From positions 1-51,776 of the forward strand of contig JAVCCU010000032.1 of assembly GCA_030765335.1 (NCBI GenBank): a DNA stretch of 51,776 nucleotides, read 5' to 3'. Below are positions 1 through 44,884 of this stretch, in pieces. The translations under genes were made by a program, and so were the position numbers. The first letter of the stretch is position 1; each line of letters opens with the position of its first letter. Origin of the DNA: Candidatus Kaelpia aquatica (GTDB taxonomy: Bacteria; Omnitrophota; Gorgyraeia; Kaelpiales; Kaelpiaceae). The notes beneath the pieces are model-generated. The model did no database searches, was not told the origin of the DNA, and was given only the letters and a program-made list of their open reading frames with translations.

Positions 1-862
1 CAATCTCTATTGATGCCGCAAAGTATTTTACCTGACCAATAACATTGCCATCTAAAGTAACAATCCACCTATCAGAAATTCCTACTTCATTCATGTTTGT
101 TCCTACTGGCAATTGAGACCATTGTGAACTAATAACAATATTTCCATCTAATACTATTTTGTTTCTTCCTTCTCCGAATGTATCTGCAACTCCTTCTATA
201 TCAATATAAAATCCTCCAACATTGTACAAAATTTGCACTTTTGGCTCAGATAAACTATGGACATCTTCACTTATCTCTGATATAGCATAAATAGATTCTT
301 CAGGTAAAAGAACTTTTGCAATTGTATCAACCATGATGGGATTATGAGTTGAGCATCGTATCCTGCCTATGCCTTCCTGTTTAAGACTATATTTAGCAAG
401 CCAATTTATAATACTGAATCCTGCCTTTCTACCTGTTGCACCAGAAATATCCAAGCTTTCTACTGATACTAAGTTTTCAGAATATCTATAATCCCAAGAT
501 ATATCCCCTGCGTTATTACCATCTATATAAATATTAAAAGTATAAGAGTACATCGTGGGCACATCTGAACGTCTAAGCTCAATCCATTCTCCTGTTTCTA
601 TATTACGTATTCTTACATTTACCAGCGCATCTTCGGCAGGTAAAGAGCCGTCATAAAGGTATTCTTCGATAAGATTGCCTCCTGAATCTCGAACAGAAGT
701 TATTCGCCTGAAACCTTGATCAAATTCATAATAGGTAGCTGCTCCATATGAATCATATTCAATATCTGTAGTCTTTATTCTTCTTGCCTGAGCAGGATAA
801 GATATGATTAAAGCAACACTTGCTATAAATAGAACAACTTCTCTAAAATGCTTTATCTTCAT
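1..862 (-). CDS. Exported protein with a GNAT-like segment, 3' end outside window
   Basis: The frame is open from an ATG at 860-862 to the window edge (about 287 codons), so the C-terminus is missing. The N-terminus is a clear signal peptide (MKIK, hydrophobic core, cleavage near AQA-RR). Residues about 30-70 have a YD-repeat flavour (EYDSYG, YEFDQG, EEYLYDG). In the middle, a strand ending SLDISGA is followed by GRKAGF, a helix and then GIGRIRCSTHNP, which resembles the acetyl-CoA-binding core of GNAT acyltransferases with a relaxed R/Q-x-x-G-x-G/A loop. That reading is a weak inference; the protein is otherwise unrecognised. Start region and promoter are near-identical to those of the next gene (954-1625). 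Confidence 0.6.
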   Translation of the reverse strand, partial: MKIKHFREVVLFIASVALIISYPAQARRIKTTDIEYDSYGAATYYEFDQGFRRITSVRDSGGNLIEEYLYDGSLPAEDALVNVRIRNIETGEWIELRRSDVPTMYSYTFNIYIDGNNAGDISWDYRYSENLVSVESLDISGATGRKAGFSIINWLAKYSLKQEGIGRIRCSTHNPIMVDTIAKVLLPEESIYAISEISEDVHSLSEPKVQILYNVGGFYIDIEGVADTFGEGRNKIVLDGNIVISSQWSQLPVGTNMNEVGISDRWIVTLDGNVIGQVKYFAASIEI

Positions 863-953: not shown

Positions 954-1625
954 TTAAAACAAAAGACCTCTGGAAATACGATCCAGTCGGGCTATAAGCT
1001 GTTCAACCTCACTGACAAACGGCGAAACCAAAATAAGACTGCCTTCTGAAGGCACCTCCCTACCTACAACAGATTCCATATCTATAATTATTTCCGATGC
1101 AATATCCCAGCTAATATGATGCTCATCTAAAAAACCATTTATTATCTTTAATATTTCTAACCCTTCGGAATAAGAATTACCATAGCACCTATTAGAAAAA
1201 ACAAACGACAGACCCAGAGCTGTTCTATCTATGACCACTTGATTATCTACATGGTCAAGAAGGGGTATTAAAGCATTCAACACCTCAATTGCATATCTAT
1301 ACCGTTCAACAATATGCTCAGAATCATAATCTGCATCGTGAGGAATATTGTCTTCATTAAACAGAACTTCTTCAATTAGTTTATCTGCGACTATCTTCGC
1401 TGATTTAAAAGACAGGTTTTCTGATAGCTTAACAATGCGTTCAATAATATTTAGATTTGCCGAACTATGAATTATGGTTTTACATAACCACAAAACACCA
1501 TTTTCGATTGTTACATTAGATACACTATGAGATCTTCTCAGCGTATAAGATTGAGAATCAAACAAACAAGGTTTGGCTAAAAAAAACATCATCAAAACAA
1601 CCAAACTTAGTGCTTTAAACTTCAT
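954..1625 (-). CDS. Exported helical protein of unknown function
   Basis: 223 residues starting at an ATG in the shared leader. The N-terminus (MKFK then a hydrophobic run ending in LAKPCLF) is a signal peptide or membrane anchor. The rest is rich in Leu, Ile and Glu and looks mostly alpha-helical, with no motif I recognise. The 5' leader is a near copy of that in front of the upstream exported protein, so both are probably expressed under the same conditions. It sits downstream of that gene on the same strand with its own promoter. Function unknown. Confidence 0.65.
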   Translation of the reverse strand: MKFKALSLVVLMMFFLAKPCLFDSQSYTLRRSHSVSNVTIENGVLWLCKTIIHSSANLNIIERIVKLSENLSFKSAKIVADKLIEEVLFNEDNIPHDADYDSEHIVERYRYAIEVLNALIPLLDHVDNQVVIDRTALGLSFVFSNRCYGNSYSEGLEILKIINGFLDEHHISWDIASEIIIDMESVVGREVPSEGSLILVSPFVSEVEQLIARLDRISRGLLF

Positions 1626-42523: not shown

Positions 42524-42941
42524 CTATTTTATACTATTTCGCCACTTTATTATCTTCTTTATGTCAAAAACTGTAAAGACCGGATAATTACGACAATCCC
42601 GGCGCGGCTTAACTAAGCCCTTTGTTATCCAGTAATATAATCCCTGCCGGGAAACTCTGATAATCTTTGCTACCTGAGTGAGATTATAGCACTTAACTTC
42701 TCTTTTTTTAGCCCTGCGAATAATTTTCTTATCCAGATGATTTATTATCTGGTCTACCTCTTTCTCTTCCTGCTTCTTCTTATTCCATAAATATTCAAAA
42801 TACTTCTGGTCAGCCTCAAATATTATCTCAAGCGCCATCTGCCATCTTAATTGCTCCTCGCTACCATAAGGATAAATTTTAACTATTTTACCGTCTTTAT
42901 TATAAAGAACCAGATCCTTTTTTAAAACCGTTCATCTCCAT
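42524..42941 (-). pseudogene. Frameshifted helix-turn-helix DNA-binding protein
   Basis: The intact part (42524-42838) has a MerR/excisionase-like HTH: YNLTQVAKIIRVSRQGLYYW near residue 50 followed by a wing with KPRR. The same frame continues upstream with good coding sense (DLVLYNKDGKIVKIYPYGSE) but finds no start. A start ATG (42939-42941) with a perfect AGGAGGTGG lies in another frame, MEMNGFKK. Removing one base from the A6 tract (42918-42923) or adjacent T4 joins both into about 138 codons. Either a decayed gene, a phase-variable tract or a sequencing error. Looks like a remnant of a mobile element regulator. Confidence 0.7.
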
Positions 42942-43098
42942 AGCCACCTCCTTTTTTTTACTTATGTCAATCCTAGTAGCCTATATAACTATTTGACATA
43001 TATTAAAAGATACCATACAGAATTTGAAAATGCCTTATTTTACAAATACTTATATATATTTTACTCGTTTTATAAAAATTAGGGAAATTATTTGAATT

Positions 43099-43157
43099 GG
43101 CTTTTCAGTCCCGCGCTCTACCCTGTCTATCAGTAGATAGGCGTGAGCTATCTCGGC
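43099..43157 (-). pseudogene. Truncated tRNA-Phe gene (5' half, GAA anticodon)
   Basis: The minus strand reads GCCGAGATAGCTCA, then a 21-base insertion, then GGTAGAGCGCGGGA-CTGAAAA. Acceptor 5' strand, D stem (GCTC/GAGC), the GGTAGAGC D-loop end and anticodon loop CTGAAAA (anticodon GAA) are those of tRNA-Phe. The D loop is expanded by CGCCTATCTA...GACAG, which can itself fold (CTATC/GATAG). After the anticodon loop the match stops: the expected TCCCG stem half, and the TCTCGGC acceptor half, are absent. A TTCAAAT resembling a T loop follows closely. Confidence 0.7.
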
Positions 43158-43172
43158 ATAAATAACTGTTAT

Positions 43173-43201
43173 AAGATAAAAAGGAAATAGAAATGCGTCA
43201 A
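43173..43201 (-). promoter_or_regulatory. Promoter of the broken tRNA-Phe gene
   Basis: TTGACG (43196-43201) and TATCTT (43173-43178) are separated by exactly 17 bases on the minus strand, ending 16 bases before the tRNA 5' end. This is a canonical sigma-70 layout at the expected distance, supporting that the fragment derives from a real tRNA gene. Confidence 0.6.
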
Positions 43202-43280
43202 TATTTAAAATCAGATTCCCCACGAGAAACACGTTCCCACTCATGTAGTGATACGAGCTCAAAGCTTCTATGGAATGATT

Positions 43281-43664
43281 TTATTCTTCTAAAGCTTTTT
43301 CGATGCGTCTTATAAGTTCTTCTGACTTTATGGACTTAGCAATGAACTCTCTTCCTCCAATCATTCCCTTGCTATCTCTCACCTCTTTTTCACTTACAAT
43401 AACAGTAAAAAAAATTATAGCAATATCGTTTATAGCAGGATCTTTTAATAAACATTCAGCCACCTCAGGACCACTCATTAAGGGCATAAGCACATCCAAA
43501 AGTATTAAATCCGGATGTTTTTCCTTAGCTAATTTGATCCCCTGGGTTCCTCCCGCTGAAGTTAAAACTTCAAATTTACCCGTTTTCTCCAACCTCAACT
43601 TCGTAAGCTGGCAAAGATCATCTTCATCATCAATTATGAGTATTTTCTTCACTATCTCTCGCAT
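43281..43664 (-). CDS. Single-domain response regulator (CheY-like)
   Basis: 127 residues, receiver domain only. Asp12/Asp13 acidic pair, phosphoacceptor Asp57 in LILLDVLMP, Thr87 in FFTVIV and Lys110 in FIAKSIK are in place. No output domain, so it works by binding another protein. Immediately upstream is the wrecked end of a histidine kinase (43690-43743), probably its former partner; AAGGATG precedes the ATG. Confidence 0.92.
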   Translation of the reverse strand: MREIVKKILIIDDEDDLCQLTKLRLEKTGKFEVLTSAGGTQGIKLAKEKHPDLILLDVLMPLMSGPEVAECLLKDPAINDIAIIFFTVIVSEKEVRDSKGMIGGREFIAKSIKSEELIRRIEKALEE

Positions 43665-43806: not shown

Positions 43807-44290
43807 TAAATTCTTTTTAAAATCTCTTAACTATATACAAGCAAATTACATGCCACAATATATTGAGAAAATAGGTAGTATAACCGATTGCAAATGAATG
43901 TCTTATCAAATAATATCTGCAATACTTGGTCAAAGCTCTTAGGTGCATGTAAACATTAGTTGCAACTGGGCTACCCCTGCTGGACGAGTTTTGCAACTGG
44001 TTATTGCACTTAAAGCCAGCTAAAAGAATTTAAAAAAACATGATTTTACAAACATCATCTATTAGTAAAATACCGATCAAGAAATAGTTTAAATAGAATT
44101 CAAACGACAATCTAAAAAGATTCTAAACTCATAAATTATAAAAATAGATAAAAAATAAAATCTCTAAAATATATTTTTTTAATTTATATCTTATTTAAAA
44201 ATTCAACTAATTTTGCTTAATAACCAATTACATGTTATATCTTTAATAGAACTTTAAAACAAATAATAATTTTAAAAAAACATTTTGAAG
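43807..44290. other. Gene-free AT-rich gap
   Basis: About 480 bases with no believable frame. Very AT-rich toward the right (44020-44290). It contains one direct repeat pair (separate entry) and possible weak promoter elements near 44210-44240 (TTGCTT, about 16 bases, TTATAT) facing the plus-strand exported gene. Otherwise nothing seen. Confidence 0.6.
43960..44000. repeat. Direct repeat pair TTGCAACTGG
   Basis: TTGCAACTGG occurs at 43960-43969 and again at 43991-44000, start-to-start 31 bases, with a relatively G+C-rich spacer (GCTACCCCTGCTGGACGAG) inside a very AT-rich gap. GTTGCAAC within the first copy is palindromic. Could be a regulator site or element end. Confidence 0.5.
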
Positions 44291-44884
44291 ATGCATAAAA
44301 ATACTACTATTATATTAATAATATTTATTCTACTTCTTCTGTGTAGCGAAAATATTCACGCTCGTAGAATACGCTTTTTTACCTCAGAAAACACCATATA
44401 TATTGACGATGATCCGCCTGAAGAGGACAGTGAAGATGCCATTGGTTTAATAGAAACTGTTTTCGGAGATCTTCTTCCCCACGAAGTCTATCAAGAAATA
44501 TGCGACGACAGATACTATCCATTAATAGCCTACGATCAAGAAAGTGGAAATATAGCAGGGGCTTTATTCTTCGTGGCTGATGAAAGTGGATATAATTCAG
44601 ACATGATAGAAGGAGTTCAAATTGCTGAGGAAAAAATGGAATTAATTAAAAATGTACAATACGTAGATATTTGGATAGCAATAAATCCAAGTTACAGAGG
44701 TAGAGGTATTGCAAAAAAGCTATATGCAATGTTAGGAGAAATTCTAAACCAAGAATATGGAATTAATAAATTTCTGGATTTAGCCGTTACAGATGCGGTT
44801 GGTTTCAGAGAAAAATTTTCCCCAATAGTTGTAGGCGAAGACGGGCAAAGATATCTCACCCTCAATACAATACCTCAAAAATAA
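44291..44884 (+). CDS. Exported GNAT-family acetyltransferase-like protein
   Basis: About 197 residues from the ATG at 44291 (a TTG two codons earlier is possible). A signal peptide (TTIILIIFILLLLCSENIHA) precedes a GNAT domain: strand YVDIWIAINPSY, acetyl-CoA loop RGRGIAKKLY (about 137-147), helix, then KFLDLAVTD. The N-terminus after cleavage (ARRIRFF) resembles that of the left-edge protein (ARRIKT). GNATs need acetyl-CoA, so an exported one is odd. One of only two plus-strand genes in the window. Surrounded by decayed DNA. Confidence 0.75.
   Translation: MHKNTTIILIIFILLLLCSENIHARRIRFFTSENTIYIDDDPPEEDSEDAIGLIETVFGDLLPHEVYQEICDDRYYPLIAYDQESGNIAGALFFVADESGYNSDMIEGVQIAEEKMELIKNVQYVDIWIAINPSYRGRGIAKKLYAMLGEILNQEYGINKFLDLAVTDAVGFREKFSPIVVGEDGQRYLTLNTIPQK

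Follow-up and report, generated by a model that had tools for sequence, protein, structure and literature searches.

Positions 43099 to 43158 of a 51,776-nt stretch of Candidatus Kaelpia aquatica DNA (contig JAVCCU010000032.1, positions 1 to 51,776; the whole stretch is hereafter called the window) hold the 5' half of a tRNA-Phe(GAA) gene. We consider it probable that this half marks a relic attachment site, a junction left by a family of small integrative cassettes that are non-autonomous. The reading builds on what can be read directly from the sequences: 5' halves of tRNA-Pro, -Ser, -Ala, -Arg, -His and -Phe genes cut at the anticodon loop, a common left end, small cassettes, adjacent intact tRNA genes, empty Pro and His sites and promoter modules. 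The genome of the window is referred to as G000, and contig numbers without a genome prefix are its contigs; G001 is a genome of the same genus and G003 is very probably Ca. Saelkia. The features of the window that concern the half are the following.

43099..43158, minus strand: 5' half of tRNA-Phe(GAA); it starts one base ahead of the acceptor 5' end, stops shortly beyond the anticodon loop and has a D loop that is a net 18 nt longer.
43124..43143, minus strand: extra D-loop sequence CGCCTATCTACTGATAGACA, limits approximate, also found at C14 and in G003 and longer in G001.
43099..43122, minus strand: conserved core GGTAGAGCGCGGGACTGAAAAGCC across the anticodon loop, the presumed crossover region, with 21 of 24 columns invariant among the window, C14 and G003.
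43171..43217, minus strand: putative promoter-bearing stretch upstream of the half, with TTGACG-17-TATCTT at 43201..43173.
43020..43098, minus strand: left-end-like flank, starting AATTCAAATAATTTCCCTAA, degenerate and without clear 10-nt repeats.

The identity of the half is established by two exact matches and by the position of its breakpoint. The string GGTAGAGCGCGGGACTGAAAA (43122..43102, minus strand) occurs once in the window where shuffled sequences lead one to expect 0.00 occurrences, and the first 15 bases of the half, TGCCGAGATAGCTCA (43158..43144, minus strand), are identical to those of the genome's tRNA-Phe. The sole complete tRNA-Phe found in the genome is located at C30:14-86 and begins GCCGAGATAGCTCAGTAGGTAGAGCGCAGGACTGAAAATCCTGG. 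Homology to it ends just past the anticodon loop, where TGAAAAgCC is followed by AATTC in the window and the intact gene reads TGAAAATCCTGGCG. The first-pass annotation had recognised a tRNA-Phe 5' half that ends after the anticodon loop, which is borne out by these unique matches and the breakpoint alignment; its reservation that no complete tRNA-Phe might exist elsewhere is removed. Neither ARAGORN nor Rfam calls a tRNA at the locus, the Rfam scan returning chance matches only, and no 3' half of tRNA-Phe was found in the window when up to 3 mismatches were allowed. The half thus does not form the complete cloverleaf, with a 3' half, that a functional tRNA-Phe has. A split or permuted tRNA was considered and rejected, the window being without a 3' half.

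The D arm, from GCTC to GAGC, measures 34 nt in the window and 16 nt in the intact gene, which corrects the 21-base insertion of the first-pass annotation to a net gain of 18. The same expanded half is present at C14:18301-18358 (90% identity over 58 nt) and at G003:C27:181-259 (84% over 78 nt), and a fourth copy with a longer insert lies at G001:C4:66414. All four have GGGACTG where the intact tRNA-Phe genes of G000, G001 and G002 have AGGACTG, and therefore form a family of their own; since each has different neighbour genes, the element is dispersed. Likeness extends beyond the half: half and flank together align with the G003 junction over 146 nt (73%, E 8e-23) and with the G001 junction over 94 nt (76%, E 5e-15). 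Between copies the letters of the acceptor and D arm are not kept and the stretch around the crossover is, with the core carrying GCGGGACTG where intact tRNA-Phe genes carry GCAGGACTG. Conservation of this core compares with 4 of 20 columns in the right arm, a figure that is lowered by the C14 copy. A core kept between genera beside a right arm that is not would fit recent spread and selection on the crossover region alike. This dispersed, D-loop-expanded family in three species, the non-native locus and the cassette DNA that forms the downstream flank had not been foreseen from the window alone. As a separate observation, two displaced tRNA-Pro halves (locus L126, G003:C19, 4290 and 5524) share an 8-nt D-loop insertion of their own, ATAGCGAA, so D-loop expansion is not special to Phe.

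Displaced 5' halves were sought with a concatenated query of halves, and the resulting inventory is a lower bound. C46 carries three tRNA-Pro(GGG) 5' halves (328, 2912 and 4290), each followed by a left end and then by a gene, and the intact tRNA-Pro of G000 is on C35. The same left end stands after a tRNA-Ser half (C30) and a tRNA-Ala half (C19). A tRNA-Arg half (C28) has an analogous left end whose repeats differ, and behind a tRNA-His half, also on C28, come a short flank and an open reading frame (ORF) with a leader. Left ends are about 150 nt long, much shorter after His, and the flank of the window's Phe half belongs to the same type. In the aligned junctions the letters directly after the halves are near the consensus RAWTCAGG, and left ends often contain 10- to 11-nt repeats (TATTACC-like, at 10-nt spacing, plus a TGGACAC pair) that look like recombinase arm sites. 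In Ca. Susulua stagnicola (L089) a Ser half, a left end and a single 474-aa ORF precede an intact tRNA-Ser, and Ca. Saelkia tenebricola (L090, very probably the same as G003:C19) has a three-cassette array in which three Pro halves are followed by an intact tRNA-Pro. Cassettes hold one or two genes each and are piled up ahead of the intact tRNA, on its 5' side. A displaced fragment and an intact tRNA gene in the same orientation bound the element in the Pro, Ser and Arg arrays, which is not the case for the window's Phe half.

Three side observations stand apart. A second left-end type, with TTTTTGGTGGG repeats, is found after sequence resembling the 3' end of ssrA (transfer-messenger RNA) in L068 (G000:C10:23885-26261), L146 (G000:C34:1080-1249) and L122 (G003:C27), and in L068 an integrase fragment lies beside it. 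Contigs C10, C30 and C37 of G000 have their first base inside a tRNA gene or only a few bases away from one, and cassette repeats may be the cause of assembly breaks there. No complete tRNA-His or tRNA-Ile(GAT) is present among the 42 tRNA genes found in G000, with tRNA-His being cut on C28; an intact tRNA-His may lie in an assembly gap.

Comparison with the close relative G001 reveals empty sites for Pro and His, the two sites that this test covers. There gpsA is followed after 34 nt by tRNA-Pro and then argS, with no cassette. G003 contains three cassettes between gpsA and tRNA-Pro, and in G000 gpsA adjoins a left end (C23), the array is on C46 and the intact tRNA-Pro precedes argS (C35). 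At the His site, G001 has tRNA-Arg followed by an intact tRNA-His, while G000 has the cut tRNA-His followed by a leader-bearing gene. In G003, identity of the Pro halves to the intact one rises as the tRNA is approached (30/39, 33/46 and 37/46 matching positions), hence decay is greater with distance from the intact gene. A promoter module that spans two genera is common to the intact tRNA-Pro of G000, the second Pro half on C46 and the second and third Pro halves of G003 (z 10.5-18.3); it was not found at the empty site of G001 (z 1.8). The first-pass annotation had pointed to the anticodon loop as an integrase crossover site, a suggestion strengthened by like scars with cassettes at at least five other tRNA genes of the genome and by the empty sites in the relative; its interpretation as a whole is partly supported.

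These arrangements could arise as follows. A cassette circle would carry a chimeric site, usually a promoter and a tRNA 5' half up to the anticodon loop, joined to a left end that would consist of an arm near RAWTCAGG and about 150 nt, often with the 10- to 11-nt repeats. At the matching tRNA gene, a tyrosine recombinase acting in trans would carry out strand exchange within the anticodon loop. This would push the resident 5' half upstream, with the left end now following it, and the cassette's own promoter and 5' half would restore the tRNA; successive events would pile up cassettes on the 5' side. We infer the circle, a tyrosine recombinase with its crossover in this loop, and the supply of this enzyme in trans. 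Because its flank is degenerate, no cassette gene follows and the locus is not the native one of tRNA-Phe, the window copy is read as a relic or as ectopic, most likely left from an ectopic or an older, decayed integration.

The genes carried by the cassettes have a common character. A strongly hydrophobic N-terminal stretch, scored with a hand-chosen threshold, is present in 18 of 21 ORFs (20 from cassettes or left-end loci plus window ORF 44285, whose cassette membership is only putative), as compared to 8 of 32 long window ORFs and 0 of 13 around G001 tRNA genes. Many of these leaders continue with A-R-R, and the proteins are, judged by these leaders, probably exported. Pfam identifies a 6-phosphogluconate-dehydrogenase-like protein, GDSL/TPR, an M28 peptidase, HEAT repeats, a methyltransferase and DUF5752 with a trehalose-synthase-like enzyme, and many of the cargo ORFs are without a Pfam match.

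No integrase gene was found in the cassette ORFs examined. PF00589 matches in G000 comprise two Xer-like proteins and an integrase fragment on C10, and G003 is similar; G001 has one further intact integrase of 300 aa beside tRNA-Met, on its contig C4. Alternatively, the junctions could have been left by ordinary islands or phages that once carried an integrase gene and later lost it, which we regard as unlikely. It would account for the integrase fragments in G000 (C10), G001 (C33) and G003 (C83), of which that on C10 has next to it the ssrA-3'-end-like sequence together with a left end that is laid out similarly. It has to explain, however, some twelve cassettes, spread over at least three genomes, with one or two genes each and all without an integrase; given this, mobility in trans is more economical than repeated independent loss. 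Searches with the left-end and half patterns gave no match in IMG/VR or among plasmids, and a single weak 45-nt match, covering the tRNA part, in a phage record.

Several points weigh against the cassette reading. No recognisable cassette gene follows the left end in the window, the Phe half is not adjacent to the intact tRNA-Phe, which is on another contig, and the C14 copy is without flank or right arm. Evidence for the G000 array is spread over several contigs. The promoter module is absent from the intact tRNA-Pro of G003 (z -0.2). No circle or excision was observed, and apart from Xer-type proteins G000 and G003 contain no intact integrase, only fragments. Left ends, sought among 147 relatives, were found in three of these and otherwise only in L089.

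The half could also be a small-RNA gene, transcribed from the upstream promoter into a regulatory or decoy RNA that resembles a tRNA half and in which the D-loop hairpin is functional. The first-pass annotation described the promoter as intact. The match to TTGACG-17-TATCTT by itself is at chance level (1 found, 1.8 expected), which speaks against both claims, but the promoter stretch is 81% identical over 47 nt to the region upstream of the third displaced tRNA-Pro half on C46. This likeness, common to another half, is better evidence for a promoter in the window than the hexamer match, and it favours the small-RNA reading, as does D-loop expansion in three species. The fold-back that had been noted in the insertion is stronger than in shuffles for the C14 copy (z -2.86) and no stronger than in shuffles for the window copy (z -0.45). 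Moreover, acceptor and D-arm letters vary among copies, the insert has a different length in G001 and no terminator was found near the half. A tRNA-half-like small RNA from the window half is possible; we consider it quite improbable that such an RNA is what the half is for.

We give little credence to a plain decayed duplicate of tRNA-Phe, unconnected with mobile elements, whose 3' half disappeared by chance: the degenerate flank and the lack of a cassette gene directly downstream would agree with it, yet the same cut point and flank recur at other loci in G003 and G001, the same architecture follows five other tRNA halves, and the half (84% over 78 nt between genera) and its flank are more alike than the neighbouring miaB (66%).

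Genes around the half in the window are as follows.

43281..43664, minus strand: ORF with a response-regulator receiver domain, upstream of the half; cassette membership only putative.
42524..42838, minus strand: ORF with a MerR-like helix-turn-helix, between the half and miaB, with related sequence in the G001 region beside miaB.

In that G001 region (L120, G001:C8:40000-48000), the place next to miaB that the half and the MerR-like ORF occupy in the window is taken by a serine recombinase and conjugation-type genes, and the sequence related to that ORF is located there. The region was considered as a cassette and rejected, being a serine-recombinase/conjugation-type insertion. Window ORFs 1-862 (minus), 954-1625 (minus) and 44285-44884 (plus) have a hydrophobic leader followed by A-R-R or L-R-R, as in cassette genes; the first two have a common 72-nt upstream repeat (86%) and the third has a GNAT-type match.

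Known tRNA-gene islands are mostly large and integrase-bearing and displace the 3' half. Described here are tiny integrase-free units from the uncultured phylum Omnitrophota that stack next to several tRNA genes, on the 5' side, and repeatedly substitute their own 5' half, and in many cases their promoter, for those of essential tRNA genes. If true, this would be a simple route for small genomes to exchange genes one at a time, many of them encoding probably exported proteins, and would be a reason for assembly breaks at tRNA genes in such genomes. No description of stacked integrase-free one- or two-gene cassettes was found in the open-licence literature searched, and a prior description is possible; a paper on Ace Lake Omnitrophota makes no mention of tRNA or integrase.

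Integron gene cassettes are small gene units gained by recombination at a fixed end, where they form arrays, with attC hairpins as sites. The arrays described here also consist of small gene units and grow at a fixed end, with recombination presumably in trans, but tRNA halves take the place of attC hairpins and several chromosomal tRNA genes serve for docking. No integron-type integrase was seen among the PF00589 matches of G000, where no dedicated integron-integrase test and no attC model search were made. Tentatively, and with more doubt than confidence, we envisage a decentralised integron-like system: one trans-acting recombinase would move single-gene cassettes with mostly leader-bearing, probably exported cargo in and out of several tRNA genes, the 5' half would be docking site as well as promoter carrier, and the expanded Phe halves would be a specialised site kept for recombination rather than as tRNA. 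Integrase-lacking satellites and MITE-like non-autonomous elements keep a recombination site and rely on a helper. We group hitcher elements (PMC11389934) with these. Compared to all of them, the cassettes differ in their single-gene size, one left end across several tRNA targets and leader-rich cargo.

Tyrosine-recombinase islands at tRNA genes are well known, and displacement on the 5' side with element-borne promoters is rare but has been described (PMC4383910, PMC8371274). pTN3-like archaeal integrases resemble the present case in a feature that, according to a review, is seldom met in bacteria (PMC8371274); these archaeal elements encode their integrase, unlike the bacterial cassettes here. 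The Islander survey, whose filter requires an integrase, lists displaced 5' fragments in 159 of 3919 islands and four tandems of three or more (PMC4383910). Its islands likewise have ends marked by displaced and restored tRNA gene sequence, and the anticodon loop is a known crossover subsite; the cassettes described here differ from them by displaced 5' halves, by one or two genes without an integrase and by up to three units stacked per tRNA gene (PMC4383910).
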